Origin: a virus
Reading direction: 5' to 3' (one strand)
Virus record (IMG/VR): IMGVR_UViG_3300025668_000745
Span: 1-64,000 of that record
DNA: 64,000 nt
In this document: positions 38,019-60,473 of the stretch, in pieces
How positions within the stretch are numbered: the stretch's first letter is position 1
How the letters are laid out: each line of letters begins with the position of its first letter
Translations under genes and position numbers: made by a program
The notes under the pieces: model-generated
The model's input: only the letters and a program-made list of their open reading frames with translations
Told to the model about the DNA's origin: nothing
The model's database searches: none

Positions 38019-38047
38019 TTGACAAACTGTATTTAAGACTGTATACT
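38019..38047 (+). promoter_or_regulatory. Near-consensus sigma70 promoter of the radical-SAM/glycosyltransferase operon
   Basis: A perfect TTGACA (38019-38024), a 17-base spacer and TATACT (38042-38047) are followed by TATGGAG and the ATG at 38067. No late octamer is present. The following twenty or so genes are closely packed or overlapping, so this promoter could drive the whole run to 60473 with host polymerase, separately from the late structural module. Confidence 0.82.
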
Positions 38048-38066
38048 AACAGTATGGAGTATACGT

Positions 38067-38420
38067 ATGGATAAAAAACTTGAAGCAGCATTAGACTTTA
38101 CTAATTATTCGCTTACATTAGAAAAACAAAAACTTATAGCAAAAAACCACTTCAAAAAATCTATTATTTTGAATTACGAAGGCGGTATGTTTACAGTATC
38201 GATGGAGTTATTGTCTTATTGTAAATTAATGGAAAAAGATAGCAACTACGAACAATACATTATTATTGACGATAATGATATCCCAATTGAAATAACAAAC
38301 TTAGAAGAATTTTATACACAGGCTCGTAGGTTGTATTACAAACACTGTAAACAATATCTAAATGAGTATAAACGTTTAATTGGCAAAAGAGACGTAAAGG
38401 GTATTGTATTTGATGAGTAG
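38067..38420 (+). CDS. Small protein of unknown function, first gene of the accessory operon
   Basis: A 117-residue soluble protein: a helical N-terminus (LEAALDFTNYSLTLEKQKLI), a central strand pair, an acidic segment (YIIIDDNDIPIEI) and a helical, basic C-terminus. No cysteine motif or membrane segment. The IxIDDNxxPxEI segment resembles one I have seen in small proteins of marine phages, but I cannot attach a function. Its stop overlaps the start of the first glycosyltransferase by eight bases (ATGAGTAG). Confidence 0.6.
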   Translation: MDKKLEAALDFTNYSLTLEKQKLIAKNHFKKSIILNYEGGMFTVSMELLSYCKLMEKDSNYEQYIIIDDNDIPIEITNLEEFYTQARRLYYKHCKQYLNEYKRLIGKRDVKGIVFDE

Positions 38421-39231
38421 CGGAGTATTGTTATTTGCAAGTAATAATAAATCAGTTGATTATGTAAAGCAAGCTATTTTCCTTGCTAAACGCATACGCA
38501 AGTATATGGACTTGCCCACTTCGATTGTTACGACTGACAAAGACTATAACATCGAACCCAGTGTGTTTGATAAGATCGTTTATGTTGATGATACAAAAAA
38601 GATTAATAATCGAATATATAATGATGCAGCTAAATCTATTACATTAAATTTTAAAAATAATTTACGTCCGTTGGCGTACGATCTTTCACCGTATGATAAT
38701 ACTTTTTTAATGGATACTGATTATATAGTTTCCAGTAATTATTTAAAAGGTTTTTTGCAACAGTATGAGGATTTTTTAATTTTTAAAGATAGCATTAATA
38801 TAGGATATGAAGATAATGCTGATACGTTTAAGTACATAGGTAAAAATAGTATTGACTTTTATTGGGCTACAGTAGTTTATTTTACTAAATCAAATAAGAA
38901 TAAAGTATTTTTTGACTTATTAAAACATATACAAGAAAATTATTATAATTATGCAGTAAATTATAACTTACAAAATACAATGTATAGGAACGATCATGCA
39001 TTTAGTATTGCAATTCATATAATGAATAATTTTGGACAGTCTAATCTTTTCAAAACTTTTCCAACTCCTATAATTTATACTTTAGACAAAGAAGAATTAT
39101 TAGAAATTAACGATACAGAATTAACATTATTATCTCGAAACTCAGATAAAATTAATACTGTATTACATAAAACAAAAGACATAGATGTTCATGTAATGAA
39201 TAAGTTTAGTTTAGAAAAGTTAATATCATGA
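38413..39231 (+). CDS. GT-A-type glycosyltransferase (GT8-like), paralogue 1
   Basis: A 272-residue protein from the ATG at 38413. The N-terminus (GVLLFASNNKSVDYVKQAIF) and LSPYDNTFLMDTDYIV, with D101-T-D103 as the DxD metal/nucleotide-sugar motif, define a GT-A glycosyltransferase resembling phage GT8-type enzymes. An upstream TTG at 38404 would extend it by three residues, but the ATG fits the 8-base overlap style of this operon and begins just before the first strand. It is about as long as, and clearly homologous to, the next gene. Donor and acceptor sugars are unknown. Confidence 0.75.
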   Translation: MSSGVLLFASNNKSVDYVKQAIFLAKRIRKYMDLPTSIVTTDKDYNIEPSVFDKIVYVDDTKKINNRIYNDAAKSITLNFKNNLRPLAYDLSPYDNTFLMDTDYIVSSNYLKGFLQQYEDFLIFKDSINIGYEDNADTFKYIGKNSIDFYWATVVYFTKSNKNKVFFDLLKHIQENYYNYAVNYNLQNTMYRNDHAFSIAIHIMNNFGQSNLFKTFPTPIIYTLDKEELLEINDTELTLLSRNSDKINTVLHKTKDIDVHVMNKFSLEKLIS

Positions 39232-40082
39232 GTAAGGGTTTTCTGTTATTTGCTCAAAATAACTCAACAACAGATTATGTGCGACAAGCATATGCATTAG
39301 CATGTAGTATAAAAGCTACACAAAAAACTCACTCTAATGTTTGTTTAATTACTGATAAAAATGTTAGTGACAATTATTCAAAAGTTTTTGATCAAGTTAT
39401 AGTAATACAGTCTGACGATGCATTAAACAGTGAATGGAAGATTGAAAATAGATATAAAATTTATGATCTTAGTCCGTATGAAGAAACTATTGTGTTAGAT
39501 ACTGATATGTTAGTATTATCAGATTTGTTAGACTACTGGCAAGACTTTTCAACACACGATATTTGCTTTACTACTGATGTAAGAACATTTAGAAATAAAC
39601 CTATAACAACTGGACTATGGTATTATAGAAAAGCATTTGTAAGATTTGAGCTACCTAATACATATGTTGCACTACATTATTTTAAAAAGACAACTCTAAC
39701 AAAGATGTTTGCAAAATATTTAGAAATTATTAATAAAAATTGGGAAGTAATATATGGTACATTTACAGGTGGCAATGCTTTTCAAAAATGGGCAAGTATT
39801 GATGTTAGTGCTGCATTAGCAATTCGAGTTTTAGATATTGAAAAGGAAGTTACTCCAAAGAATTCTGTAATTAATTTTACTCATATGAAAGTATACCATC
39901 AAGAGTTTGATAATTTGCAAAATAATTGGCAAGATTATATTACTGCTTATATGACAGACGAATTAGAACTTTTTATTGGCAACTATAAACAAGGTGGAGT
40001 TTTTCATTATATTGAAGATTCGTTCTTAAGCGATAAAATTATAAAAAAATATGAAAAGTATTTGAATTATGCAGAATTATAA
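39228..40082 (+). CDS. GT-A-type glycosyltransferase (GT8-like), paralogue 2
   Basis: A 284-residue paralogue of the upstream gene: GFLLFAQNNSTTDYVRQAYA at the start and LSPYEETIVLDTDMLVLSDL with D91-T-D93. The downstream GGNAFQKWASIDVSAALAIR and the late His (NFTHMKVYHQ) fit the acceptor and metal-binding region of such enzymes. ATGA overlap with the previous stop implies coupling. Two sequential enzymes of one family suggest they add successive sugars or work on different acceptors. Confidence 0.78.
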   Translation: MSKGFLLFAQNNSTTDYVRQAYALACSIKATQKTHSNVCLITDKNVSDNYSKVFDQVIVIQSDDALNSEWKIENRYKIYDLSPYEETIVLDTDMLVLSDLLDYWQDFSTHDICFTTDVRTFRNKPITTGLWYYRKAFVRFELPNTYVALHYFKKTTLTKMFAKYLEIINKNWEVIYGTFTGGNAFQKWASIDVSAALAIRVLDIEKEVTPKNSVINFTHMKVYHQEFDNLQNNWQDYITAYMTDELELFIGNYKQGGVFHYIEDSFLSDKIIKKYEKYLNYAEL

Positions 40083-40644
40083 AAAGAGAATTTCCTATCT
40101 AAATAAAATTAATAATAAAGTACCTATCTGGTATTGCGAATATGATAGCAAGTCTAACGATATTATATGTTTTACAACAATTGATAATAAAACATCTACA
40201 CGAATTGAAGTTTCACATGACACTGCAATGAAGTTTAATAGTGGAGAAAAACATTTATATCAATATTTTGTCAATGTTGACAGTAATGCTGTTGAAATTA
40301 AACAACAGTTTTTAAAGCCTAAAACAACAAACTTTTTTGAAGTAATACAACAAACAGATATATGTGATATTATAATACAAAAGGACTACAAAAACAACAA
40401 GTGGAAATTTAGTTGTAATAATGTTGAGAACAACATTGACGGATCATTACATTTCAGCATTACTCAGAAAGACAACCCAAATTTGCTATATAGAAGTATA
40501 ACCATTTCTGTAAATGAGATAACTGATAATACTGTAGAAGTTGACTTTACAGAACACGATAAAAACACTAAAGACTATAGTGTGTTCACAGTTAAAAAGT
40601 TTCAATCGTATACATTAGAGGAAAAACATGCATCAAACACTTAA
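40069..40644 (+). CDS. Hypothetical beta-rich protein in the accessory operon
   Basis: A 191-residue protein overlapping the previous gene by 14 bases and the next by 17. Alternating hydrophobic and charged strands without enzyme motifs suggest an all-beta fold. It contains four cysteines, none in a CxxC pair. I do not recognise it. Location between glycosyltransferases hints at glycan binding or a partner role, an inference from context only. Confidence 0.55.
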   Translation: MQNYKKRISYLNKINNKVPIWYCEYDSKSNDIICFTTIDNKTSTRIEVSHDTAMKFNSGEKHLYQYFVNVDSNAVEIKQQFLKPKTTNFFEVIQQTDICDIIIQKDYKNNKWKFSCNNVENNIDGSLHFSITQKDNPNLLYRSITISVNEITDNTVEVDFTEHDKNTKDYSVFTVKKFQSYTLEEKHASNT

Positions 40645-42244
40645 AGTAAAAGATTTAGATATAATATATCTATCTTACGATGAACCAAACGCAGAAAAAA
40701 ATTATGAAGACTTACTTACAAAAGTGCCTTGGGCAAAGCGTGTACACGGAGTAGAAGGCAGCGATGCCGCACACAAAGCATGTGCTAAACTTAGTAATAC
40801 AGATCGATTTATTACTATAGACGGTGACAACATAATTAATCCTAAGTTTCTGCAAGAAGAAATATATTTCTATGATGGTGCAGATATCGACAAGGCTGTT
40901 ATTAGTTGGACTGCTAAAAATTCAATTAACAATTTAATGTATGGTAATGGCGGCATTAAGTGTTGGCCAAAATCTCATGTTTTAAATATGCAAACACATG
41001 AAAATGCTGAACCAGATAATGTCAAAGCACAAGTCGATTTCTGCTGGGACATGGAGTACATACAACAAGATACTTGTTATTCGATGATAATGAATAATTA
41101 TACTCCTCATCAAGCGTGGCGTGCTGGGTTTCGTGAAGGGGTTAAGATGGCACTCAACGAAGGAACACAACTATCTAAAGACGGATTGTTATCTCAACAT
41201 TGGAAAAATCTAAATAGACTCTATATTTGGACAATGGTCGGCTGCGATACTATAAACGGCGACTGGGGAATACTTGGGGCAAGAGCAGGTTTGTATATGG
41301 CTATGTGTACAGATTGGGATTTTATACAAGTAAGAGATTTTGAACATTTAAACGACTTATGGAAACAGTCCTTTGAATCGATTGAAAACGTTGAAGATGA
41401 AATTGTTGAATACGGTATCAAACTCATTAATGCACTTGATCTTCCAATTGCTGAAAATCCGTTATCAGCTCAACAGAGTAAATTCTTCAAAACAGTGTAT
41501 CGAAACCCTCCAAGATTAATATCGCCTAAAGTTGTCAAAGCATCTCCAGTAGCAAAAACAGAATACGATATTGTAATGATAACATATAACGAAGAATATA
41601 TGAATCAAAACTACAAGAGATTATTAGAAAGATTTCCTTATGCAAAGCGTATACACGGAGTAGATGGAATTCATAATGCACATATAAAAGCAGCAGAGCT
41701 ATGCACAACTGATATGATTTGGATAGTTGACGGTGATGCTGTTATTGACGACGATTTTAATTTTAACTATGCAGTTCCTAAATGGGATTTAGACACAGTG
41801 CATGTATGCAATAGTAAAAATCCTATTAATGATTTAATTTACGGTTATGGTGCTATTAAACTATTTCCGAGAGAACTTACTCTTAATATGGATAAGTCTA
41901 AGCCGGATATGACTACAAGTATAAGTAATAAATTTAAAAAAGTATACGAAATAAGTAATATTACTGAATTTAATACAAGTCCGCTAAACACTTGGAAAAG
42001 TGCATTTAGAGAATGTTGTAAACTTTCAAGCAAAGTAATAGACAGACAAAAAGACGACGAAACAAACGAACGATTAAATATTTGGTGTACAGTTGGCAAC
42101 GACAGACAATACGGAGAATATGCAATCGATGGTGCCAACGAAGGCAGAAAATACGGAGAATACTATCGTGATTCACTGCAAGATCTGCGTAGAATAAATG
42201 ATTTTATGTGGTTAGAGGAGAGATTTAATGAGCATTACAAATAA
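40628..42244 (+). CDS. Tandem-domain glycosyltransferase
   Basis: A 538-residue protein made of two homologous GT-A-like halves. Half 1 (about 9-300): DIIYLSYDEPNAEKNYEDLL, AKRVHGVEGSDAAH, and D65-G-D67 in FITIDGDNII. Half 2 (about 312-538): DIVMITYNEEYMNQNYKRLL, AKRIHGVDGIHNAH, and D368-G-D370 in IWIVDGDAVI. The N/PIN(D/N)L(M/I)YGxG(G/A)IK segment also appears in both, and both end with a W(R/K)(A/S)(G/A)FRE helix. Both metal-binding motifs are intact, so it may be bifunctional, adding two sugars or alternating linkages. A clear AGAGGA ribosome site precedes the ATG. Confidence 0.8.
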   Translation: MHQTLKVKDLDIIYLSYDEPNAEKNYEDLLTKVPWAKRVHGVEGSDAAHKACAKLSNTDRFITIDGDNIINPKFLQEEIYFYDGADIDKAVISWTAKNSINNLMYGNGGIKCWPKSHVLNMQTHENAEPDNVKAQVDFCWDMEYIQQDTCYSMIMNNYTPHQAWRAGFREGVKMALNEGTQLSKDGLLSQHWKNLNRLYIWTMVGCDTINGDWGILGARAGLYMAMCTDWDFIQVRDFEHLNDLWKQSFESIENVEDEIVEYGIKLINALDLPIAENPLSAQQSKFFKTVYRNPPRLISPKVVKASPVAKTEYDIVMITYNEEYMNQNYKRLLERFPYAKRIHGVDGIHNAHIKAAELCTTDMIWIVDGDAVIDDDFNFNYAVPKWDLDTVHVCNSKNPINDLIYGYGAIKLFPRELTLNMDKSKPDMTTSISNKFKKVYEISNITEFNTSPLNTWKSAFRECCKLSSKVIDRQKDDETNERLNIWCTVGNDRQYGEYAIDGANEGRKYGEYYRDSLQDLRRINDFMWLEERFNEHYK

Positions 42245-43127
42245 AGAATTTTTACATGGATTACAAGAATATAGTGAATTTAAGACAGAAGGTTCGGTTG
42301 CACGAAATGTAAAATCTTTCTTAGATATCCTATATGCAGAGGATCAAAAGTCTGCTTTTGTTAATCATTTCTTACCAAAAGATCTTGCAAATATTTACGG
42401 ATCTGATAATTTTGAGCAAGACCTTATTGTATATCTTTTAAATAATTATGAAGGCAACGATACTCGTTATTTTAGATTTATTAAGGACTTTATCAAAAAA
42501 GATAAAGACATGAATATACTCTCAGATGCATTAAGTAGAAGCCAAATCAAGAGTAAGATATGGTTAGTAAATGAGCTTGAAAAAATATCTAATCATTATG
42601 GCAATGTTGTACTATTAGCTGGTTGGTACGGACAGTTAGTTGAGTTGTTTGGAGATAGTGTAGACAAGATTACATTTAAAAAATTTAGAAACGTTGAAAT
42701 TGATATAGATGCATGTAATGAAAGTGACTATAATTTTAACTTACGTCGAATAGATGATTACAAAGTAAAATCTATACACGGCGATATTAATAATCTTAAT
42801 CTGCACGGAAGCGGATATCAGTGGGACGTAGAAAATTTTAAAACTGAAGAAAAATATAATGAGCAATTTTACCCAGACCTAATTATAAACACAAGTGCTG
42901 AACATATGACAACTGAATGGTTTAATCAAATTAGATTTAACCCTTGGAAAGATCATAAACCTATTGTTGCTATACAAAGTAATAATTATTTTGACTTAGA
43001 AGAACACGTAAATTGCGTACATAGTATTAATCATATGAAAAAACTATTTCCTATGAGTAAAATATTATATGAAGGTGAATTACAACTTAAAGGTTATAAG
43101 AGAGTTATGTTGATCGGTGAAGCATAA
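42228..43127 (+). CDS. SAM-dependent methyltransferase-like protein
   Basis: A 299-residue protein. An N-terminal helical part (1-105) is followed by a Rossmann-like core: SKIWLVNELEKISNHYGNVV, then LLAGWYGQLVELF (129-141) in the position of the SAM-binding glycine loop, a D/N-rich segment, and DLIINTSAEHMTTEWFNQI (near 220) where class I methyltransferases have motif IV. The glycine loop is less classic than usual (AGWYGQ). Related phage proteins are annotated as methyltransferases. The substrate is unknown; methylation of a sugar made by the neighbouring glycosyltransferases is plausible. Strong AGGAG ribosome site; 17-base overlap with the previous gene and 1-base overlap with the next. 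Confidence 0.62.
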   Translation: MSITNKEFLHGLQEYSEFKTEGSVARNVKSFLDILYAEDQKSAFVNHFLPKDLANIYGSDNFEQDLIVYLLNNYEGNDTRYFRFIKDFIKKDKDMNILSDALSRSQIKSKIWLVNELEKISNHYGNVVLLAGWYGQLVELFGDSVDKITFKKFRNVEIDIDACNESDYNFNLRRIDDYKVKSIHGDINNLNLHGSGYQWDVENFKTEEKYNEQFYPDLIINTSAEHMTTEWFNQIRFNPWKDHKPIVAIQSNNYFDLEEHVNCVHSINHMKKLFPMSKILYEGELQLKGYKRVMLIGEA

Positions 43128-43801
43128 TGAAACGAATACTATGTATCGGCGACAGTCATACTGCTGGACATAATAGACGCACTAACGTATCTGGCCCTGA
43201 CGATATTGTAACTCCTAAGAATTGGTCAGCCTATTTACAAAAAACATTTCGTAATTCAGAAGTTTGGAATTTATCATTATCAGGTTCAAACAACTTTTTC
43301 TCTGGTATAATACTTGATAGTTTTTTAGAAACTTATACTCCTGATGTAGTAATTTATCAGATATCTGATCATAGAAGATTTATAAAAATAAAACGTACAA
43401 CTAAATTAAATTTATTAGAAAGTACAAATTGTGTTGCTCCTAATTATTATGCATTACAAAGACGACCTTTCCCCTTTGGAATGATGGTTAGTCCACAGAG
43501 CTTTTCATCTGCATCACGTAAAGAGATAATTCGGCTGTATACAGCGTTATCTGATGACGACATTGTATATTTAAATAGTATTGCAGTAGAAAGGAATCTT
43601 CTAAAATTACAGAATATTCCACATTACGCATTTTATTGGCGCAAAGAAGATGCTGTTATTACAGGCTACGACAGTGTAGATGATATATTAGGATCACAAT
43701 TTCATAGTTTTGTTGAAGACAACGGATGTCACTTAAATACTACAGGACACGGACTTGTTTACAATAACATTATTCATACAAAGGTAGTAAACTTACTATG
43801 A
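43127..43801 (+). CDS. SGNH-family hydrolase-like protein 1
   Basis: A 224-residue protein. ILCIGDSHTAGH places the nucleophile Ser10 in block I (GDS). NLSLSGSNN supplies the block II Gly, and the C-terminal D198-NGC-H202 supplies an Asp/His pair, though spaced DxxxH rather than the usual DxxH. SGNH enzymes are esterases or acetyl-transfer partners, often removing or adding O-acetyl groups on glycans. There is no signal peptide, so it acts in the cytoplasm or is released on lysis. It lies between the methyltransferase-like gene and the first radical-SAM gene, one of four SGNH genes in 5 kb. Confidence 0.72.
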   Translation: MKRILCIGDSHTAGHNRRTNVSGPDDIVTPKNWSAYLQKTFRNSEVWNLSLSGSNNFFSGIILDSFLETYTPDVVIYQISDHRRFIKIKRTTKLNLLESTNCVAPNYYALQRRPFPFGMMVSPQSFSSASRKEIIRLYTALSDDDIVYLNSIAVERNLLKLQNIPHYAFYWRKEDAVITGYDSVDDILGSQFHSFVEDNGCHLNTTGHGLVYNNIIHTKVVNLL

Positions 43802-44025
43802 TAGATTTAAAAGATCTCCCTGTTAGGGAATTACAAAAAGAAAGTGCAAGAGCTCTAAGTACAATACAAGCAACTAACAATAATATTTGGCAGTTTAATA
43901 AAAAAGCTCATCACAATAGTCATAATTGGTATTGTGCTGTAATAGACTGGTATATTGATCAATATGGAGATTTGCCCAGTAAAGCAGGCCCTGGTAAAGA
44001 TGTAAAATTGGTGTTAGATGTATGA
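43798..44025 (+). CDS. Small His/Trp-rich protein of unknown function
   Basis: A 75-residue protein with ATGA overlaps on both sides, so it is firmly inside the operon and probably real. The N-terminal half is a charged helix; the middle (KKAHHNSHNWYCAVIDWYID) is rich in His, Trp and Tyr; the C-terminus has DLPSKAGPGKD. No leader-cleavage signature is evident. Small size beside radical-SAM genes raises the idea of a modified peptide, but it has only one Cys and no repeated core, so I leave it unassigned. Confidence 0.6.
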   Translation: MIDLKDLPVRELQKESARALSTIQATNNNIWQFNKKAHHNSHNWYCAVIDWYIDQYGDLPSKAGPGKDVKLVLDV

Positions 44026-44654
44026 GAAAAAATGTATTCTGTTTTGGATGCAGCTTTACTAACGGTATCCATTTTGCCCAAAAAGACTGGAGAGCTTCAT
44101 ATCCGTATCAGCTATCTCTACTCATGCCGGACGTAGATGTTTATAATCTTGGGGTATCTGGTGGAAATAATATACTGAATGATATGATAATAAAAAAAGC
44201 ACTTGAGGAGTATTCCGTAGATTTTTCTATTGTACAGTTTACATTTCCAAATAGATTTTATATTTCGTTATCTGATAGTTCTGAAAAAATAGGTATTAGG
44301 TACGGGGTTAAGCAGCTAAGTGATAATTATTACTTGTTATCCAAAGAGTACATAGCAGAATATTTTAATATTTTTACGCCAAGCTACTTGAAAAGCAATG
44401 TTCAAAGGATTAAGCAACTGTATAAATTACTACCAAAAAGACAAATAGCTCATATAAATGAAACAGCTTATTTGTCAACATTATATAGATTAAAAGACTT
44501 GCATCATTATACTTGGTCTTGGAACGAAGACACGTTAGGCACTAATGTAGTACCTAATAGCCTAAAATTAGAAAAATTTGATGACGGTACTGGACATTTG
44601 ACTCAAAAAGGTAATCGGGTACTTGCAGGCTATTTAAAAGGTGAAATAGCATAA
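44022..44654 (+). CDS. SGNH-family hydrolase-like protein 2
   Basis: A 210-residue protein. VFCFGCSFTNG has Ser11 in the block I position (GCS instead of GDS), YNLGVSGGNN gives block II, and D188-GTG-H192 near the end gives the Asp/His pair with a three-residue gap as in protein 1. GCSFT in place of GDS is a known variant in phage SGNH-like proteins. It is followed without gap by the first radical-SAM gene. Role as in the other SGNH copies is inferred only. Confidence 0.68.
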   Translation: MRKNVFCFGCSFTNGIHFAQKDWRASYPYQLSLLMPDVDVYNLGVSGGNNILNDMIIKKALEEYSVDFSIVQFTFPNRFYISLSDSSEKIGIRYGVKQLSDNYYLLSKEYIAEYFNIFTPSYLKSNVQRIKQLYKLLPKRQIAHINETAYLSTLYRLKDLHHYTWSWNEDTLGTNVVPNSLKLEKFDDGTGHLTQKGNRVLAGYLKGEIA

Positions 44655-45737
44655 ATGTATAGATACGAAGACATCAAAGAAGTACACTTAGAAATTACGC
44701 AAAAGTGTCAAGCGGCCTGTCCTATGTGCGATCGTAACATGAATGGCGGAGATGATAATCCTCATATTACAAATGCAGAACTTAGTTTAGAAGATGCAAA
44801 AAGAATGTTTAGTCCTGCTTTTATAAAGCAATTAAATGTTATGTATATGTGCGGCAACTTAGGAGATCCTATTGTTGCTAAAGATACGCTTGAAGTATTC
44901 AAATATTTCCGCGAACATAACGATAAGATATGGTTGAGCATGAATACTAATGCTGGAGCCAAGAGTGCTGAATGGTGGACAGAACTTGCAGGAGTTATTG
45001 GTCGCAAGGGAGCAGTAATTTTTAGTGTAGACGGTTTAAAGGATACAAATCATTTATATCGACAGAACGTTGTTTGGAATAATGTTGAACGTAACATGCG
45101 AGCATTTATTAATGCTGGAGGCAGAGCCCGTTGGGACTTCTTAATTTTTGCACACAATGAACATCAAGTAGATGAAGCAGAAGCACTTGCTACTCAGTGG
45201 GGATGTGAAAAGTTTATCAAGAAAAAATCAGGTAGATTTATTACAAGTGATATTAAACCTAAAACATCTCATCAAGCAATAAATCGTAAAGGGGCTGAAA
45301 CACAAAACTTAGCACAGCCTAAAGATGAAAAGAATAAAAACATAGCACTACTAAAACAAAAAGAAATTGAAAAGTCTTATGGTAGTATGAAAGAGTATTT
45401 AGATAAGTGCAGTATTACTTGTAAAGTTGCAAACCAAGGAAGTATTTTTGTAACAGCAGAAGGACTTTTAATGCCGTGTTGTTGGACTGCTGGACGTATG
45501 TACAAATGGTGGCATGCAGATCCCCGTGTAGAACAGGTATGGGATCATATAGATAATGCTGGCGGAAAACAAGGCATAAGTATTATAGACAATGACATTA
45601 AACACGTGGTTAATGGAAAATTAATAGATAGTATCACTGCAAGTTGGCAAAAAAATAGTATTGCTGACGGAAAACTTGGCGTTTGCGCTCAAAAATGCGG
45701 TAGTGAATTTGACCCGTATAAGGAGCAATTTGTATGA
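44655..45737 (+). CDS. Radical SAM protein 1 ('GDP' type with C-terminal cysteines)
   Basis: A 360-residue protein with the [4Fe-4S] motif C18-QAA-C22-PM-C25. Instead of the usual GGEP it has CGNLGDPIV, followed by LSMNTNAG and FSVDG strands. A subfamily mark is FAHNEHQVDEAEALA near residue 165, also found in radical SAM protein 9. The C-terminal domain holds TCKVA, PCCW and CAQKCG, consistent with a SPASM/twitch-like auxiliary cluster. Such enzymes use reductive cleavage of SAM to make a 5'-deoxyadenosyl radical. The gene starts directly after the SGNH 2 stop and overlaps SGNH 3 by ATGA; together with that SGNH it forms a repeated gene pair. Confidence 0.88.
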   Translation: MYRYEDIKEVHLEITQKCQAACPMCDRNMNGGDDNPHITNAELSLEDAKRMFSPAFIKQLNVMYMCGNLGDPIVAKDTLEVFKYFREHNDKIWLSMNTNAGAKSAEWWTELAGVIGRKGAVIFSVDGLKDTNHLYRQNVVWNNVERNMRAFINAGGRARWDFLIFAHNEHQVDEAEALATQWGCEKFIKKKSGRFITSDIKPKTSHQAINRKGAETQNLAQPKDEKNKNIALLKQKEIEKSYGSMKEYLDKCSITCKVANQGSIFVTAEGLLMPCCWTAGRMYKWWHADPRVEQVWDHIDNAGGKQGISIIDNDIKHVVNGKLIDSITASWQKNSIADGKLGVCAQKCGSEFDPYKEQFV

Positions 45738-47463: not shown

Positions 47464-47464
47464 A

Positions 47465-53115: not shown

Positions 53116-54349
53116 AAAGGTATTTTGTACAGCACCTTTTTTTAATTTATATTATAAGGGTAATAAGGATTATAATAAAATAATGCCTTGTTGTGAAGGT
53201 CGTTTGGGATCTTTAGGTAACTTTAGTCATTATGAAGAATATAGTAAAAGTAAATGGTTACGAAATATAAGAAAGAAAATGCTTAACAACGAACCTGCAG
53301 AAATATGTACTCGATGCGTATCTGTTGAAGAAGCTGGCGGGTTCAATGCAAGAGAACATTATAGAAATTTACTTGAAAAAATAGAATTTAGGACAAAGGA
53401 AAAAGTAGAGTTTAATTTTAAAAACGGGAACCAACACGGCCATCCGATGGCATTAGATTACAGAGGTAGTAATCTTTGTAATTTAAAATGCAGAATGTGT
53501 CATCAAGGAAGTAGTTCGGAAATTGCTAAAGAAATTAATAAAAATCAAGATCTGTATCGTCCAATGGGATACGGTAACGGAGTAAGTCATTTATATATTA
53601 ATAACAAACTGCCTAACGAGTTTATAGACGAGCTTAAATTAGACAACGTGTATAGATTTAAAATCTTAGGCGGCGAACCGTTAATGCAAGAAGATGTGTA
53701 CATAGGATTAGAAAAAATGGCACAGTTGCCACACAGGAAGGAAGTTGATATAAGTTTTACAACTAATGCAACTAACTTTCCAAAAAGATTCTATGACTTA
53801 ATTGGAAAATTTAGACGTATATTGATGCGAGTAAGTCTTGACGGTGTTGATGATGTATTTGAATATTGTAGATCAAACGGCAACTGGGACAAAATTATGA
53901 AAAATATAACTTCGTTGTCTGAGCGGGGGTATACACAAAATGAATTAGCTCTCGGTTTTAGTTTTGTTATACAATTTTATAATGTTTTTAGGATTTATGA
54001 TATAATGGAATGGTGTGCTAAATGGGAAGATGAACATCCTATAGAAACTTCGATATGGTCAATGCATACATTTTTTAGTCCAATTGAACAAAATCATTTA
54101 TCAACAGCAATGTGTACTACAGAAGATAGAGAATTTCTTAGACAAGAGCTTGACAGATTCCTTAAAGATTATGGACGTAGGTCCTGGTTTGATCGTGTAG
54201 AAAACATTATATTCAATTTTGATGAAAATAGAAATTTTGATAAAGAAAAAGCCAAAGAAACACTAATTGTATACAGTAAAAATTTAGATAAAATTAGAAA
54301 AACCAATTTACCAGATTTACATGAAAGATATAGCAAATATTATGAATGA
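53090..54349 (+). CDS. Radical SAM protein 7 (N-terminal twitch type)
   Basis: A 419-residue protein from the ATG at 53090, chosen because GGAG lies nine bases upstream and the twitch motif follows closely. An upstream in-frame alternative start at 53024 would only add sequence read from inside the previous gene. Twitch: FCTAPFF (C13), MPCC (C34, C35), C73-TR-C76. Core: C130-NLK-C134-RM-C137, LGGEPLMQ, TTNAT and SLDGV. The C-terminal region contains YNVFRIYDIMEW, in place of the VHALN/VTAYN strand of the others. Confidence 0.89.
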   Translation: MENQNQQSKKVFCTAPFFNLYYKGNKDYNKIMPCCEGRLGSLGNFSHYEEYSKSKWLRNIRKKMLNNEPAEICTRCVSVEEAGGFNAREHYRNLLEKIEFRTKEKVEFNFKNGNQHGHPMALDYRGSNLCNLKCRMCHQGSSSEIAKEINKNQDLYRPMGYGNGVSHLYINNKLPNEFIDELKLDNVYRFKILGGEPLMQEDVYIGLEKMAQLPHRKEVDISFTTNATNFPKRFYDLIGKFRRILMRVSLDGVDDVFEYCRSNGNWDKIMKNITSLSERGYTQNELALGFSFVIQFYNVFRIYDIMEWCAKWEDEHPIETSIWSMHTFFSPIEQNHLSTAMCTTEDREFLRQELDRFLKDYGRRSWFDRVENIIFNFDENRNFDKEKAKETLIVYSKNLDKIRKTNLPDLHERYSKYYE

Positions 54350-55532
54350 AACATACAATAGTATTAACCCCAGTAAAACAAATGAATTTATCATAACATG
54401 GGACACTGGCAAACGATGTAATTTTGACTGCGGCTATTGCGGCGATGACAGACATGACTTAGTGAGCAAGTTTCCAGACTTCGACGAGCTTGTTAAAGGT
54501 GTTGACTTTATTAAGAAATATTTAACAGTAATGATGCCGCATAGGAATAATCAAGTTGCTACACTTAGTTTAACAGGCGGAGAACCTACAGTTAATCCTA
54601 ATTTTTTACGATTAGCAACATATCTAAACGATCAATTTAAAGACTTTGAATACGAAGTTAAAACTATCTTAACTACAAACGGCAGTTTCCCTCAAAAAAA
54701 TATTCAACATTTGGTAGATAATTTTAGAGGAATCACTCTTAGTTATCATTGTGATAGTAAAGAAAAACTTAAAGAAAAAGTAAGAGAAAATATCCTTATT
54801 TTACATAAGAGTATGAAAAGTTTTAAAGTAAATCTTATGATGCATCCGTATGATAATTATTGGCAAGAATGTTTAGATTTAATCGATGTAATGGACGAGC
54901 ATAAAGTTAAGTATGTTCCAAGAGTAATTAATGGTTTAAAATATAGTCCAGAGCAAAGTGAATTTCTTACAAATTATTGGCAAAGGAAAAATAAAACTAA
55001 AACTGAAATAAAAGTAGAAAAAGTTGAATCAAAGCCACAAGAAGTTAAAAAAGAAAATGTCATACATCGAAAAATGAAAAAAGATGTTGAAAAAACATTT
55101 AACGAATTACGAAAAGATGAAACTAAAACTAATGTTATTCACGGCAGGCATTGTTGTAGTAAACACGAATTATCCTGCGGGTCAATGTGTGGATCTACGC
55201 AAAATCTTACATATGTTACCGATACAAGATTTCCAGAATGGTACTGCGGTGTAAATTGGTTCTTTTTACATCTCGAAAGTCAAACAGATCAAATATTTCA
55301 TCATCAAACCTGTCAAGCACAATACGGCAAAGGTAGGGGAGCAGTTGGTAAAATAAGTGAGTGGACAACTTTTACTGACAAAGTTGAAACTATGATAAAC
55401 ACAGGTAAAATGGAAACTATTCAATGTCCAAATAAAAAGTGTGGTTGCGGATTGTGTGCTACAAAGAGTATAGATAAAAATATGTTTAACAACTTAATGT
55501 CTAATCATATTAAGGGCGTAACATATGTCTGA
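54342..55532 (+). CDS. Radical SAM protein 8 (CxxxCxYC type with Cys-rich C-terminus)
   Basis: A 396-residue protein from ATG 54342, which gives the 8-base overlap ATGAATGA; an ATG at 54321 would add seven residues. Core: C26-NFD-C30-GY-C33, LTGGEPTVNP and TTNGS. No N-terminal twitch. A Lys/Glu linker (about residues 228-270) leads to a dense cysteine region: HCCSKHELSCGSMCGS, YCGVNW, CQAQYG and CPNKKCGCGLCA. That is ten or more cysteines, enough for one or two extra clusters. The split between core and cysteine domain by a charged linker is unusual among its neighbours. Confidence 0.87.
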   Translation: MNETYNSINPSKTNEFIITWDTGKRCNFDCGYCGDDRHDLVSKFPDFDELVKGVDFIKKYLTVMMPHRNNQVATLSLTGGEPTVNPNFLRLATYLNDQFKDFEYEVKTILTTNGSFPQKNIQHLVDNFRGITLSYHCDSKEKLKEKVRENILILHKSMKSFKVNLMMHPYDNYWQECLDLIDVMDEHKVKYVPRVINGLKYSPEQSEFLTNYWQRKNKTKTEIKVEKVESKPQEVKKENVIHRKMKKDVEKTFNELRKDETKTNVIHGRHCCSKHELSCGSMCGSTQNLTYVTDTRFPEWYCGVNWFFLHLESQTDQIFHHQTCQAQYGKGRGAVGKISEWTTFTDKVETMINTGKMETIQCPNKKCGCGLCATKSIDKNMFNNLMSNHIKGVTYV

Positions 55533-56751
55533 TAACAGTCTTGGTATTCATATCGAAATATCTTCTAACTGTAACAGCAGATGTTTAGACTGTGGACGAT
55601 TTGTCAAAGGTACAGACACTATTAATCCGTATGTTGATATTGGAAGTAAAGGCAATATCAGTATTTCGGCTATAGAAAATATTTTTGATAAATCTATATC
55701 AGAAACTGCACGATACGTAAATTTTACTGGAACTTATGGTGACTTTACCTTACATCCCAATGCATTAGATATAATGAAATGTATTTCTAATAAAATACAC
55801 CCGCACATAAAAAATAGAAATAAAAATGAGTTAACAGATAAAATAAGATTACTTGCTGAAACAAATGGCGGAGCAAGAGACGACGAATGGTGGCACAAGT
55901 TTGGTGACTACATCTTAAAATATTTTGATAAAGGTAGTTTAGTTATATTTGCATTAGACGGCACCGACAACGACACGCACCAAATGTACCGTCGAGGTGT
56001 TGACTTTGATACAGTGTTACGACATGCAAAAATTTTAATTGATAAAGGTATACGAACACGTTGGAGCTTTATAAGTTTTGCGCACAATGAACATCAACTC
56101 GACGAAGCAAAGCAAATGGCTAACGAAATAGGATTTACACAATTTCGAATTAGAAGATCAAGGCTACGCCATAATCCAAAAACAATTACAAATGTAAAAC
56201 AAAAAAAGAAAAACATAAGTGATAAACAAATATCAAAGTCTCAGATGTATACAGACTTAGTAAAAGAAAAAGAACATAGTGTTGTAAATGATGTTCCTAA
56301 GCCGTGGTATAAAAAGAAGATTGACGATTATGTAAATGAAACTTCTATTGAGTGCGAATGGAAAAAGAAACAACAAATTAGTATAGACTATACAGGAAGA
56401 GTTTGGCAATGTTGTTACTTTAGTAATTTTTATCATTATAACTTAAATCTGCCAGACTACGAACATGTGTCAAATAATGCATATGATTACAATTATAATA
56501 ACCAAAACTACGAACGGTTAAGTGTCTACGAGGATAGATACAATGACAAATGGAATAATATAAATCATAGAACACTTAGTAATATTTTAGGACACGATTT
56601 CTTCACAACAGATTTGCCTGATAGTTTTAATAACACTACAGAGCATAAACATAATCCAAGAATTGTACGATGTAGCAAATTTTGTGGAGAAAAGTCAAGA
56701 ACTTTAGATAAGAAGCTAACATCTATTAATAAAGAAAAAGAGGAACAATAA
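55525..56751 (+). CDS. Radical SAM protein 9 ('GDP' type, fused C-terminal cysteine domain)
   Basis: A 408-residue protein with C16-NSR-C20-LD-C23 and, instead of GGEP, FTGTYGDFTLHP. ALDGTDND and FAHNEHQLDEAKQMA mark it as a relative of proteins 1 and 2. The C-terminal half has ECEW, YTGRVWQCCYF and CSKFCG, which are the motifs encoded separately by 47071-47463. It is therefore the fused form of the split pair. It begins at ATGTCTGA, an 8-base overlap with the upstream gene. A Lys-rich loop near residues 215-245 lies between core and cysteine domain. Confidence 0.88.
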   Translation: MSDNSLGIHIEISSNCNSRCLDCGRFVKGTDTINPYVDIGSKGNISISAIENIFDKSISETARYVNFTGTYGDFTLHPNALDIMKCISNKIHPHIKNRNKNELTDKIRLLAETNGGARDDEWWHKFGDYILKYFDKGSLVIFALDGTDNDTHQMYRRGVDFDTVLRHAKILIDKGIRTRWSFISFAHNEHQLDEAKQMANEIGFTQFRIRRSRLRHNPKTITNVKQKKKNISDKQISKSQMYTDLVKEKEHSVVNDVPKPWYKKKIDDYVNETSIECEWKKKQQISIDYTGRVWQCCYFSNFYHYNLNLPDYEHVSNNAYDYNYNNQNYERLSVYEDRYNDKWNNINHRTLSNILGHDFFTTDLPDSFNNTTEHKHNPRIVRCSKFCGEKSRTLDKKLTSINKEKEEQ

Positions 56752-58158
56752 ATGACTTACAAATCGCCGTCAGACACATTTTGCTTACTGCCTTGGGTAC
56801 ATTTAAGTACAAGACCGGACGGCAGTATGCGAGTATGTTGCACAGCTAATGCAAGTAGTGTTGGCGCAACCAATGACAAAGAGCACGGCGGCCAAGTTGG
56901 CATCCTTAAAACTGAAGACGGTAAGCCTAATAATTTAAATGTTAGTGATTTTGAATCAGCATGGAACAGCACATACATGAAAAATGTGCGTAAGCAGATG
57001 CTTAATGGTGAAAAGCCACCCAGTTGTATAAAATGCTTTAAAGAAGAAGCGGCTGGTCACAATTCAAAGCGTATGTGGGAAACACATTATTGGAGCCAGA
57101 GAGTTGATGTTGATAAAATTATTGCTGACACAAAAGAAGACGGATCAGTTCCACCTCAACTTGCGTACATTGATTTACGCTTTGGTACTAAGTGTCAGTT
57201 AGCATGTGTTATGTGTAGCCCACATGATAGTTCAGGTTGGATTAAAGATTATAAAGCAATTTTTCCTGCTGTAGAAAACGCCAGTCTTAAAGAAACAATG
57301 CAATGGCAAGACAAAGGAAGTTATAATGGTAGTAGTTATAACTGGCATAAACAAAATCCTACTTTCTGGAAACAGTTTTATGAACAAATGCCAAGTATGC
57401 AGCAGATCTATTTTGCAGGCGGCGAAAGTCTTATTATTGAAGAACACTATGAAATACTTGAACACGCAATTAAAATGGGATATGCTAAAGATTTAGAGCT
57501 ACGCTATAATTCAAACGGTGTTGAATGGCGTGAGGATTTATTTGATTTATGGAAAGAATTTAAACTTGTACGATTCCATTATTCAGTAGACAGTATACAC
57601 GAAATGAATGACTATATACGTTATCCAAGTGTATGGAGTAGAACAAGTGAAGTCTTTCATATATTAGATAACGAAACAAGTAATAACGTAGAAGTTACAG
57701 TTGCATGTGCAGTGCAAGCTCTTAATATATATTATTTGCCCGACTTTATAAAATGGAAACTTAACGAAGGATTTAAAAAGATTAATATGTGGCCTTTTGG
57801 CGCCGGCGGTATTAACTATCACTTTGTATATCATCCACCGCATTTAAATGTAAAAGTTTTACCCAAATGGTTTAAAGAAGAATGCCGTAAGAAGTATGAA
57901 GAATTTTATCCGTGGTGGGAAGCTAATTGGGAAAAGGGTGTACCGAGCTGGCACAAAGGCAAAGTTGATTACGACAAATGGCGCAGTGCAAGTTATGGTA
58001 TTGATAGATTAGAAGGAATGTTAACGTTTATGGAAAGCGAAGACTGGAGTGTGCGACTTCCTGAAATGAAAGAATTTTTAGATTTATGTGACACACAACG
58101 CGGCATAACTTTTGCAGAAACTTTTCCTGAAATGAAGGATATATTTAAGGATGTCTAA
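56752..58158 (+). CDS. Radical SAM protein 10 (N-terminal twitch type, extended)
   Basis: A 468-residue protein. Twitch: FCLLPWVH (C11), MRVCC (C29, C30), then an insertion with KTEDGKPNNLNVSDFES, and C92-IK-C95-FKEEAAG. Core: C148-QLA-C152-VM-C155, FAGGESLI (Ser replaces Pro), YNSNG and SVDSI. The insertion and the DLRFGxxCxLAC line pair it with protein 11. It starts one base after the previous stop with GAGGAA as ribosome site. Confidence 0.9.
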   Translation: MTYKSPSDTFCLLPWVHLSTRPDGSMRVCCTANASSVGATNDKEHGGQVGILKTEDGKPNNLNVSDFESAWNSTYMKNVRKQMLNGEKPPSCIKCFKEEAAGHNSKRMWETHYWSQRVDVDKIIADTKEDGSVPPQLAYIDLRFGTKCQLACVMCSPHDSSGWIKDYKAIFPAVENASLKETMQWQDKGSYNGSSYNWHKQNPTFWKQFYEQMPSMQQIYFAGGESLIIEEHYEILEHAIKMGYAKDLELRYNSNGVEWREDLFDLWKEFKLVRFHYSVDSIHEMNDYIRYPSVWSRTSEVFHILDNETSNNVEVTVACAVQALNIYYLPDFIKWKLNEGFKKINMWPFGAGGINYHFVYHPPHLNVKVLPKWFKEECRKKYEEFYPWWEANWEKGVPSWHKGKVDYDKWRSASYGIDRLEGMLTFMESEDWSVRLPEMKEFLDLCDTQRGITFAETFPEMKDIFKDV

Positions 58159-59473
58159 CACCTTTTGTCCTATTCCCTGGATATTTCAAGCAGTACGTAA
58201 TAACGGCGATATTAGAGTATGTTGTCAAGCAAACGTAACTAAAAATCAAGGTGTTGTTAGACACGAAGACGGCAAACCGTATAATGCCGGAAGAGATGAT
58301 ATGTCAAAAGCACGTAATGCAACTCTTATGAAAGAAATACGGAAAAATATGCTTGACGGAGTATGGAGTGAAGAGTGTACTCGGTGTATGAACGAAGAAG
58401 CAAGTGGGTTAAACAGTCGAAGACAGTACGAATTAGAAAATTGGAAATTTGATTTAGACGAAGCAGCATCTATAACTGAGTTAGACGGATCTATATCTCA
58501 ACCTCCAATAAGTTATTATGATTTACGCTTTGGTAATATGTGCAACCTTGCATGTCGTATGTGTGGCCCAACTGACAGCCATACCTGGTATGAACAGTGG
58601 ATAGATTATCACGGCGGCGACGGATATGATGATACTCATGGTAGAGTTACGTTAAAGAAAAATGAAAAAGGAAGATTATATACCAACGATTATGATTGGC
58701 ACAACAGCGAAAGTTTTTGGGAACAAATAGAAAAAAATATTTCAAATATTGACCATGTATATATGGCCGGCGGCGAGCCAATGATGATTGAACGTCATTA
58801 CGAGTTTTTACAAAAGTGTATAGACAGCGGTTATGCAAAAAAAATTATTATTGAATATAATACAAATATGACAACTTTGCCTGATCGAGTATTAAAAATG
58901 TGGACATATTTTAAACAAGTAAGAGTTGGCGCAAGTATAGACGGAATGGGTGATGTTGTTGAATATCAACGTTGGCCACTAAAATGGAAAAGTGCATATC
59001 GTAATTTAAAAAAACTTGATGACTATGCGTATAACAATAAAAATATTATTGCTTGGATAGCATTTACAGTTACAGCATACAACGTATGGCATACACCAGA
59101 ATTTATGTGGTGGAAATTAAAAGAAAGCGGATTTAAAGCAATTAACAGCACTAAGAAACGTCCTATTATTACACATCATGTTGCTCACGGACCAAAAAGA
59201 GCAAACATTAAGATTTTGACACCTGAGCTTAAAATAAAATTACAAGAATATTATAACGAATGGATTGATCGTGTTAATGGCGATAACGAAATTACACCTT
59301 TACAAAAAGAAAAATTTGCTGATATATTAGCAAGTATTTTAAAATTCTCCAATAGTGCAGATATGAGTGATCAAATACCGCAGTTTATAAAATTTACTAA
59401 ATATCTCGACGATACTCGTAAGCAAGATATATTATCAATTGCGCCAGAATACAAGGATTTATTTGATGGCTGA
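58151..59473 (+). CDS. Radical SAM protein 11 (N-terminal twitch type, extended)
   Basis: A 440-residue close paralogue of protein 10. Twitch: FCPIPWIF (C6), IRVCC (C24, C25), an insertion with RHEDGKPYNAGRDDMSKARN, and C76-TR-C79-MNEEASG. Core: C131-NLA-C135-RM-C138, MAGGEPMMIERHYEFLQ (compare FAGGESLIIEEHYEILE in protein 10), EYNTN and SIDGM. The pair probably arose by local duplication. An 8-base overlap ATGTCTAA joins them. Confidence 0.91.
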   Translation: MSNTFCPIPWIFQAVRNNGDIRVCCQANVTKNQGVVRHEDGKPYNAGRDDMSKARNATLMKEIRKNMLDGVWSEECTRCMNEEASGLNSRRQYELENWKFDLDEAASITELDGSISQPPISYYDLRFGNMCNLACRMCGPTDSHTWYEQWIDYHGGDGYDDTHGRVTLKKNEKGRLYTNDYDWHNSESFWEQIEKNISNIDHVYMAGGEPMMIERHYEFLQKCIDSGYAKKIIIEYNTNMTTLPDRVLKMWTYFKQVRVGASIDGMGDVVEYQRWPLKWKSAYRNLKKLDDYAYNNKNIIAWIAFTVTAYNVWHTPEFMWWKLKESGFKAINSTKKRPIITHHVAHGPKRANIKILTPELKIKLQEYYNEWIDRVNGDNEITPLQKEKFADILASILKFSNSADMSDQIPQFIKFTKYLDDTRKQDILSIAPEYKDLFDG

Positions 59474-60473
59474 CTTTCTACCAATGATGTATCAAGATAG
59501 TCCAATAACTAAAGTACTCCAAGAATCAACAACTTTTAACTTTGCTACTACAGTATCAGATTATTGTAATTACTCGTGTCATTACTGCTGGCCTGGAGCA
59601 CATGCTGGAACAATGAAACTTCCGCCACCTACAGATATATTCAAGCATAATATTAAAAAATATTGCAAATGGGTTAAAAAACATAACCCAAAAATAGAAA
59701 ATTTTTATTTTCATTATAGCGGCGGCGAGCCTTCTATGTTCCCCCATATGTCTGATTACCTAAAGTTTGTTGCTGATGAAATACCTAATGGGTATAGCGG
59801 ATTGCAAACAAACGGATCTCGAACAATTAGATGGTGGGAGAAAAATTTACCAAATCTTCATTCATTATCGATAAGTGTACATGTTGGTAGCGCAGATCCT
59901 AATCATTTAATAGAACTTGCAAAACTTTGTGAAGAACACAAAGTAGATTACAATCTAAATGTTGCAGCCGATCTTCGAAATAAAAAGAAAGTATTAAAAT
60001 TTTTAGAATTATTTTCTAAAAATAATCTACAAACGGGATTTCATCTAATACAAGAAATACACGAAACCTGGGACGATAATGATCTACACACTAATAAAGA
60101 GTTTTATGAGGCGTGTGATAGTTTTACAGCGCATTATCAAGATCGTAATAGTAATTCAGAGTTACAACGTAAAGTAACATTTGAAACAGAAGATTCAAAG
60201 AAACCAATTAAGTTTGATGAAATGCAGAGAAGTTCAATGAGGGGAGATTGGACTGGATATGATTGTAATACACCGGCACAATTTATGATGATTAATTCAC
60301 AAGGTCATTTATATATATCTTGTGGTAATAAAATTGGACCACTAATTAAAAAAATTGATTTATTTAAATCTAAATTATCAGTTATTCCTGCACAACCTTG
60401 GGTGCGTTGTACAACTGGATATTGTAAGTGTACAGGCTTATGGCATGCCAATAAACAATTAGTAATAAAGTAG
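59466..60473 (+). CDS. Radical SAM protein 12 (CxxxCxYCWP type)
   Basis: A 335-residue protein from ATG 59466 (overlap ATGGCTGA). Core: C34-NYS-C38-HY-C41-WP, SGGEPSMFPH and QTNGS; SISVHVG replaces the SxDG strand. C-terminal cysteines are few: YDC, ISCGNK, RCTTGYCKC, resembling a short SPASM-like tail. The CNYxCxYCWP line and the SGGEP(S/T)FHP-like line link it to the next gene, despite that gene's different base composition. It is the last gene of the coupled operon; a new promoter starts at its stop codon. Confidence 0.88.
   Translation: MADFLPMMYQDSPITKVLQESTTFNFATTVSDYCNYSCHYCWPGAHAGTMKLPPPTDIFKHNIKKYCKWVKKHNPKIENFYFHYSGGEPSMFPHMSDYLKFVADEIPNGYSGLQTNGSRTIRWWEKNLPNLHSLSISVHVGSADPNHLIELAKLCEEHKVDYNLNVAADLRNKKKVLKFLELFSKNNLQTGFHLIQEIHETWDDNDLHTNKEFYEACDSFTAHYQDRNSNSELQRKVTFETEDSKKPIKFDEMQRSSMRGDWTGYDCNTPAQFMMINSQGHLYISCGNKIGPLIKKIDLFKSKLSVIPAQPWVRCTTGYCKCTGLWHANKQLVIK

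Follow-up and report, generated by a model that had tools for sequence, protein, structure and literature searches.

What might a phage make with more than 22 kb of closely packed genes in which a few glycosyltransferase-like proteins are joined by a long array of radical-SAM enzymes? The question is raised by IMG/VR record IMGVR_UViG_3300025668_000745, of which positions 1 to 64,000 (hereafter the window) were analyzed. Our tentative answer is a phage island, opened by a sigma70 promoter, that could encode a pathway for tailoring a glycan or glycoconjugate, acquired from Bdellovibrionota-like bacteria.

Layout, promoter and gene content

Downstream of the promoter, 24 same-strand ORFs are packed into positions 38067-60473 (Table 1; genes are named by their first position). 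Their 23 junctions comprise 20 overlaps, two abutting pairs and one 1-base gap, which bears out the closely packed run of over 22 kb described in the initial annotation. The accompanying statement that most junctions overlap by 1, 4 or 8 bases was wrong: 11 of the 23 do so, the remaining overlaps being 11-29 bases long. At 38413, 46443, 53090 and 59466, ATG or GTG starts were preferred over mechanically called TTG starts. The run also extends further, to 61627, through a radical-SAM gene that begins 35 bases after 60473, and the next ORF (61617-62249) lies on the opposite strand. No terminator-like site was found on the + strand from 36500 to 64000, and no tRNAs were found.

Taken alone, the promoter is not above chance, given that the window holds eight sites scoring at least 11/12 where first-order simulations give 3-8; promoter-like sites overall number 63, against 67.6 expected from shuffles. 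The site at 38019 gains its credibility from conservation ahead of the run's first gene: all 12 non-redundant viral regions upstream of 38067 homologs (one of them, L161, from the same population as the window) carry a promoter of at least 10/12, and 10 carry one of at least 11/12, while mononucleotide shuffles reached these scores in 121 and 7 of 2000 cases. Where 40628 instead heads the run behind an opposing gene, a promoter of at least 10/12 precedes it in 18 of 31 loci, against 89 of 1000 under the null. A further 11/12 site lies inside the run, at 49114. The near-consensus promoter noted earlier thus stands, and sequence conservation supports a host-type sigma70 promoter at the island start, from which the whole run may be read as a single transcript, possibly early in infection.

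Table 1. Positions of the promoter and genes of the island within the window.
Feature	Position	Strand	Basis
Fiber-like protein preceding the island	36959..38011	+	Homolog beside same GT8 genes on Bdellovibrionota chromosome
Sigma70-type promoter, TTGACA-17-TATACT	38019..38047	+	11/12 consensus match, 19 bases upstream of ATG at 38067
117-aa protein, function unassigned, first gene of run	38067..38420	+	
GT8-like glycosyltransferase	38413..39231	+	hhalign 99.9% to 39228 family
GT8 (glycogenin-like) glycosyltransferase	39228..40082	+	Profile match to glycogenin, E 4.5e-7
191-aa protein, function unassigned	40069..40644	+	
GT2-like protein, 538 aa, lineage core	40628..42244	+	PF00535 E 7.1e-5
SAM-methyltransferase-fold protein, helical N-terminal half, lineage core	42228..43127	+	AF2 pLDDT 83
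SGNH/GDSL-like protein	43127..43801	+	PF13472 E 6.4e-4, below cut-off
75-aa helical protein, nearly invariant, phage-specific	43798..44025	+	AF2 pLDDT 90
SGNH-like protein	44022..44654	+	By eye, GxS block; no Pfam match
Radical SAM/SPASM-type, lineage core	44655..45737	+	PF04055 E 4.7e-6, CxxxCxxC
SGNH-like protein	45734..46450	+	By eye; PF19547 E 0.0064
Radical SAM core separated from its SPASM part	46443..47078	+	PF04055 E 5.9e-8
SPASM part of split gene	47071..47463	+	PF13186 E 0.009
SGNH/GDSL-like protein	47465..48214	+	PF13472 E 3e-4, below cut-off
N-terminal-twitch radical SAM	48201..49415	+	NF033640 225.8 bits
N-terminal-twitch radical SAM	49405..50499	+	NF033640 255.9 bits
N-terminal-twitch radical SAM	50480..51724	+	NF033640 257.8 bits
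N-terminal-twitch radical SAM	51712..53115	+	NF033640 234.4 bits
N-terminal-twitch radical SAM	53090..54349	+	NF033640 245.9 bits
Radical SAM, MoaA-like core	54321..55532	+	PF04055 E 1.4e-9
Radical SAM/SPASM-like	55525..56751	+	PF04055 E 5.5e-10
N-terminal-twitch radical SAM, most conserved enzyme of island	56752..58158	+	NF033640 418 bits
N-terminal-twitch radical SAM	58151..59473	+	NF033640 373.2 bits
Radical SAM	59466..60473	+	PF04055 E 2.2e-11
Radical SAM past end of initial annotation, common to Bdellovibrionota clusters	60509..61627	+	PF04055 E 9.9e-16

The kinds of genes are those initially described, but the dominance of radical-SAM enzymes, which make up 13 of 25 ORFs and most of the island length, had been undersold. 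The CxxxCxxC motif is intact in all 13 (the whole 84.6-kb record holds 15 such genes). Eleven exceed the PF04055 cut-off of 29.5, with 44655 (27.3) and 51712 (22.8) below it, and seven of the ORFs scanned exceed the curated cut-off of 170 bits for N_Twi_rSAM (NF033640) with 226-418 bits; 44655, 54321 and 55525, also scanned, stay under that cut-off. A PHROGs search gave no function past "radical SAM."

Assignments among the other genes are of uneven depth. Membership of GT8 rests on a profile match to a GT8 member for 39228, and extends to 38413, which has no direct PDB profile match, only through 39228. The 40628 product, which also has no match in a PDB profile search, scores 23.2 bits against a PF00535 gathering cut-off of 23.3 and is therefore named only GT2-like; by eye, it consists of two similar halves. 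The products of 43127 (20.7 bits) and 47465 (21.8) fall below the SGNH hydrolase gathering cut-off of 32.9 and are called SGNH-like. For 42228 a PDB profile search returned no match, and the best Foldseek match of its predicted structure is PsoF (E 4e-8). The gene at 36959 probably encodes a fiber, a label given because it is located after the tail-fiber ORFs; it has no PDB profile match of note and no match among cultured phages.

Recurrence in viruses and counterparts in Bdellovibrionota

The island is a lineage trait, since all 36 related viral records hold between 4 and 21 radical-SAM genes. The initial annotation had proposed looking for the same gene order elsewhere, and this proved fruitful among viral and cellular genomes alike. 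In the 80 best viral loci, where 56752 is 84-99% identical, a core of glycosyltransferase (40628, 74/80), methyltransferase-fold protein (42228, 59/80), 75-aa protein (73/80 in a six-frame search) and SPASM radical SAM (44655, 78/80) recurs in fixed order. Around it, variable genes of other phage loci include UDP-sugar dehydrogenase, cytidylyltransferase, nucleotidyltransferase, FkbM methyltransferase, carbamoyltransferase and sulfotransferase families, as well as Trp-halogenase, AMP-binding enzyme and thioesterase families that would suit a small-molecule pathway equally. The nearest relatives of the backbone proteins are in jumbo phages, at 26-50% identity (26-35% for the giant and baseplate proteins), and the baseplate query also matches eight Synechococcus and four Prochlorococcus records.

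On Bdellovibrionota chromosomes, the core radical-SAM proteins have clustered orthologs of about 60% identity, and these clusters carry relatives of 56752, 44655, 60509, 58151, 54321, 40628 and 42228. One chromosome (G203:C21) holds homologs of 36959, 38067, both GT8 genes and 40628 in phage order; this block adjoins housekeeping-like genes, with no further recognized phage gene in 42.9 kb. GT2 genes account for 12 of 70 neighbor proteins of the Bdellovibrionota counterparts, whereas near other N_Twi genes the figure is 3 of 101 (Fisher p 0.0018); the comparison used unequal windows (8 kb vs 5 kb) and 101 of the 126 control proteins listed. Carbamoyltransferase and ketoacyl synthase genes near the other N_Twi genes would again suit a small-molecule pathway equally.

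In the tree of 56752, the phage sequences form a clade inside a Bdellovibrionota grade, and a single Bdellovibrionota clade is rejected (AU p 0.0024). A first calculation with 116 rows gave long-branch warnings and the tree was rebuilt with 47 rows, omitting L028_18623, L095 and L096, the phage rows being four chosen sequences plus 14 drawn at random from the remainder. Phage and Bdellovibrionota sequences lie apart in the 60509 tree, which cannot be rooted and therefore gives no direction of transfer. We found no description of the Bdellovibrionota radical-SAM/glycosyltransferase clusters in the literature searched; this counterpart and the invariant 75-aa protein are what is new beyond the initial annotation.

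The 75-aa protein has 26 invariant columns across 41 sequences and matches only phage or phage-like contigs. It is absent from all 16 Bdellovibrionota genomes that have the orthologous enzymes (control positive), and was not found across 290 Bdellovibrionota genomes in a search run without a positive control. PDB profile searches matched it only in fragments, to designed repeat proteins and to antibody light chains, and the predicted fold has no structural match at E <=0.001. A likeness to death domains was rejected, the VIA-align Z of at most 4.4 indicating no more than a common arrangement.

Candidate products of the island

Glycan remodeling, as initially suggested, is retained as the best single reading, given that the operon opens with two GT8-like, a GT2-like, a methyltransferase-fold and SGNH-like proteins and that the cellular counterparts lie among GT2 genes. 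The suggestion of an O-antigen or capsule synthesis locus does not survive: a Pfam scan of 40 ORFs of this fragmentary record detected no nucleotide-sugar synthase, flippase or polymerase, which also counts against the glycan reading itself, as does the fact that the closest solved PDB matches of the N_Twi profile are the peptide maturase SkfB and viperin. In the proposed pathway, the GT8-like and GT2-like transferases would assemble a sugar chain or lengthen an existing one. Each SPASM or twitch radical-SAM enzyme would then introduce one oxidation, dehydration, epimerization or C-C/C-S change into the sugar units, and the methyltransferase-fold and SGNH proteins would make methyl and acyl changes. 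The modified glycan might then be shown on the infected cell surface or on the phage's own fibers. The 75-aa protein, encoded between the methyltransferase-fold and first SPASM genes, may be a partner that lacks catalytic activity, for example an adaptor or docking factor.

An unlikely alternative keeps this chemistry and makes the phage fiber the acceptor, with 36959 and the two GT8 proteins as a cognate set that modifies the virion rather than the host surface. The 36959 family (hhalign 99.6% to L259:14388-15311) lies immediately before the 38067 homolog in 20 of 20 loci having an upstream ORF, and the cellular block described above keeps the same association. Bdellovibrio is reported to recognize prey via phage-fiber-like MAT family proteins (PMC10769870), to which 36959 might be related. 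However, a variable island beside the fibers would be usual for the host recognition region of any T4-like phage, as described for pelagimyophages (PMC7029224), and the GT8 pair occurs in only one of the 16 Bdellovibrionota genomes with a 56752 ortholog.

That the island instead yields a diffusible natural-product-like molecule, or a viperin-like nucleotide antimetabolite, against the host or rival phages appears quite improbable. Viperin is matched by 49405 (E 8.8e-14) as well as by the N_Twi profile, oxygenases, an FMN reductase and a nitroreductase are encoded nearby, and halogenase and AMP-binding families occur in relatives; the viperin score is, however, 51 bits against a family cut-off of 180, and the glycosyltransferase, SGNH and methyltransferase core points another way.

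Still less probable is a RiPP-like role, in which the 75-aa protein would be the precursor of a small peptide matured by the radical-SAM set. SPASM and twitch domains are common among peptide maturases, SkfB is the best PDB match, and a small protein is indeed encoded near the first radical-SAM gene. This protein is, however, conserved along its full length and predicted to form a folded helical domain, features unlike those of a precursor; it stays constant while the radical-SAM set changes, and it is missing from the cells that have the orthologous enzymes. Nor was a PqqD/RRE domain seen in Pfam scans of 40 record ORFs and of the variable families (25 of 32 listed). General metabolic aid to the infected cell with no dedicated product, along the lines of the low-oxygen role suggested for Campylobacter phages CP220 and CPt10 (PMC2853527), is very improbable, as the fixed core order in phages and the matching chromosomal cluster suggest one pathway.

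Relation to other radical-SAM-rich phages

Phages rich in radical-SAM genes have already been published. CP220 and CPt10 are T4-like, with 11 and 12 radical-SAM proteins in partly exchangeable modules that were termed highly unusual; they are cultured Campylobacter phages whose modules include an amidinotransferase (PMC2853527), and neither came up in tblastn searches with 56752, 40628, 44655 or the 75-aa protein. TARA_ERS488813_N000010, a 183-kb marine T4-like genome with 12 radical-SAM genes, is possibly of the same lineage as our virus, judging by its description (PMC5332604). That study interpreted the genes as serving Fe-S metabolism, together with an A-type carrier; the idea that such a carrier (PF01521) goes along with the array was rejected here, since one of 26 related records has it. 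Aeromonas phage 332-Vera (PQ474292), likewise compared by description, belongs to the Chimallinviridae and carries eight radical-SAM genes inside its structural gene cluster (PMC12390700).

The idea of glycan remodeling is itself not new, being in print for the "host recognition clusters" of pelagimyophages, which are described as hypervariable, placed behind a giant protein and tail fibers, and containing GT8-rich glycosyltransferases and radical-SAM cassettes, with O-chain change against co-infection as the proposed role (PMC7029224). Those are named SAR11 phages, and for our 44655 the match there is no better than 24%, in Pelagibacter phage Mosig. The Bdellovibrionota clusters differ from the phage island in lacking the 75-aa protein and, in all but one of the 16 genomes, the GT8 pair.

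Phages with many radical-SAM genes have been termed unusual since 2010 with no explanation given, and the fixed four-gene core, its near-invariant small partner protein and the matching cluster on chromosomes of predatory bacteria now provide a testable handle. If glycan tailoring is correct, uncharacterized SPASM and twitch enzymes would join sugar chemistry, and surface recognition by phage and predator would be tied to one gene pool. More speculatively, and we consider this unlikely, a large uncultured lineage that infects Bdellovibrionota, or descends from phages of this group, may have taken over both a shared fiber and the radical-SAM glycan pathway of the predator, the phage-specific 75-aa protein redirecting the pathway; predator and phage would then compete with the same class of fiber and modified-glycan chemistry.

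Gene run and promoter

The window covers the opening 64,000 bases of an 84,643-base virus record, and its island comprises 24 same-strand ORFs (named here by window start position); of their 23 junctions 20 overlap, two abut and one has a 1-base gap, the overlap measuring 1, 4 or 8 bases at 11 of the 23. One extra radical-SAM gene extends the run, and the ORF after it lies on the opposite strand.

Features of the record and their positions
Feature	Start	End	Remark
4998-aa ORF	15968	30964	
TTGACA-17-TATACT	38019		11/12 match
Gene run	38067	60473	
Run with extra radical-SAM gene		61627	
75-aa protein	43798	44025	+ strand
Radical-SAM/SPASM gene	46443	47463	two ORFs (core and SPASM part), 8-base overlap
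Second dense stretch	63764	75774	record positions; L003:764-12774

The promoter sequence taken singly proves nothing, since the window holds eight sites of at least 11/12 against 3-8 in eight simulations. Upstream of homologues of 38067, the first gene of the run, at least 10/12 was found in 12 of 12 non-redundant regions (one, L161, being the window's own population) and at least 11/12 in 10 of 12, while mononucleotide shuffles reached 10 in 121/2000 and 11 in 7/2000. Where 40628 stands first behind an opposing gene, a promoter-like site of at least 10/12 precedes it in 18 of 31 non-redundant loci (shuffles: 89/1000), 17 of these 18 at the same distance. Given this conservation upstream of both genes, the sequence comparison indicates that the run very probably starts with a real host-type promoter.

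CxxxCxxC is present in 13 ORFs, 11 of which pass the Pfam Radical_SAM cut-off, and seven ORFs pass the curated cut-off of N_Twi_rSAM (NF033640, radical SAM with N-terminal twitch domain; 170 bits); PF04055 has 15 matches across the whole record. The accompanying genes include 39228, similar to glycogenin (GT8, E 4.5e-7), its relative 38404, the GT2-like 40628, with a Pfam score just under cut-off, 42228 with a methyltransferase fold, and four SGNH-like ORFs (two from sub-threshold Pfam matches, two by eye). The core/SPASM split recurs in L005, a separate contig with 99% identity. Past the window end follow TauD and Asp/Arg hydroxylase oxygenases, an FMN-reductase-like protein, a methyltransferase and another radical-SAM family; the second dense stretch also holds peroxiredoxin-, GNAT- and desaturase-like ORFs (by eye) and two further radical-SAM genes, and several of its ORFs have relatives in Bdellovibrionota clusters. 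Over its first 1000 residues the 4998-aa ORF matches a PA5oct-like jumbo phage virion protein at ~29%, and the ORF may correspond to the VrlC-type protein of PMC7029224.

Distribution among viruses

Radical-SAM-rich phages are an already known kind, because earlier reports describe 11 and 12 radical-SAM proteins in Campylobacter phages (PMC2853527), 12 such genes in a marine T4-like genome (PMC5332604), cassettes in pelagimyophages (PMC7029224) and eight genes in 332-Vera (PMC12390700). No earlier description of the 75-aa protein, of the conserved promoter or of a counterpart in Bdellovibrionota was found in the literature searched, which leaves out most subscription papers.

The radical-SAM island is a trait of the phage lineage. 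We confirmed 297 relatives of the radical-SAM protein 56752 in viral contigs, the best 80 of the 297 being 84-99% identical, and radical-SAM matches numbered 4-21 per record in 36 of 36 records searched. Among the best 80 loci, best matches were present for 40628 in 74, 42228 in 59 and the radical-SAM protein 44655 in 78, and a six-frame search found the 75-aa protein in 73. In three of the other seven (L005, L027, L029) the contig carries it beyond the fetched flank, two (L030, L057) have less than 1.1 kb upstream of the match, and L039 and L040 are without it. Conversely, the 75-aa protein is a called ORF in 67 of 79 loci fetched with it; where at least 1.5 kb lies downstream (49 of these 67), a radical-SAM gene is present in 49/49 and 44655 in 48/49. 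Cultured phage records gave no match to the 75-aa protein or 40628.

Vibrio phage K566 (255 kb) has three annotated radical-SAM genes (161548-165950), the best protein being 20.8% identical to 56752. Of the 80 viral loci, 47 encode a PP-loop ATPase-like protein (recognised by eye from an SGGADS motif) and 31 encode a short SDR-like protein; both have relatives in Bdellovibrionota loci and neither is in the window's island. Six phage-like contigs (L085, L086, L091, L094, L095, L096) have been placed in MAGs whose labels are Neisseriaceae, Planctomycetota, Rickettsiales, Gammaproteobacteria, Chloroflexi and Acidimicrobiaceae; these placements are probably binning errors, of a sort that could mislead host assignment.

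A cellular counterpart in Bdellovibrionota

An N_Twi alignment scan of 84,980 genomes returned mostly Bdellovibrionota contigs. Relatives of 56752 (557-687 bits) occur at ten loci (L087-L090, L092, L093, L097, L107, L113, L142), nine named Bdellovibrionota and L088 only 'bacterium'; 44655 relatives cluster with them at all ten, often with relatives of 60509, 58151, 54321 (all radical-SAM), 42228 and 40628. A 56752 match of E 1e-100 or better was found in 15 of 290 Bdellovibrionota genomes, and N_Twi genes (E 1e-50 or better) in 55 of 191 against 2 of 299 Pseudomonadota, one of which, G329, carries the 75-aa phage gene on the contig holding five of its six N_Twi matches. None of the 16 Bdellovibrionota genomes in which 56752 has an orthologue yielded the 75-aa protein, in a search whose positive control recovered it from the window's record and from 4 of 5 MAG genomes carrying phage-like contigs.

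The Bdellovibrionota contig C21 of genome G203 (139,884 bases) carries housekeeping-like genes (by eye: RsmI, RNase HII, L19, TrmD, RimM, PheS, PheT), followed by relatives of 56752, 40628 and 60509 and then a homologue of 36959, the fibre-like ORF before the island (hhalign 99.6%, E 4.3e-24), which a plain sequence search with 36959 missed. After it, in phage order, come 38067, two GT8 genes, a 163-aa ORF and 40628, and after these four further radical-SAM-related ORFs. A careful 56752 tree, with the 58151 paralogue group as its root and a long outgroup branch that calls for caution, places the phage sequences within a Bdellovibrionota grade; the grouping of all Bdellovibrionota sequences in one clade is rejected (AU p 0.0024), and L086 (a MAG contig of 5.8 kb) and G203 are the rows nearest to the phage clade. 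The G203 block is either the donor form or was captured from phage.

Proposed function

Modification of a peptide, a small-molecule pathway and a fibre-targeted variant are possible alternatives. We prefer glycan tailoring, in which transferases and radical chemistry would act together, because the core includes GT8, GT2-like, methyltransferase and SGNH genes, because GT2 proteins are enriched near the cellular clusters (12/70 against 3/101 in the comparison set), and because the variable genes of the relatives include sugar-activating or sugar-modifying families.
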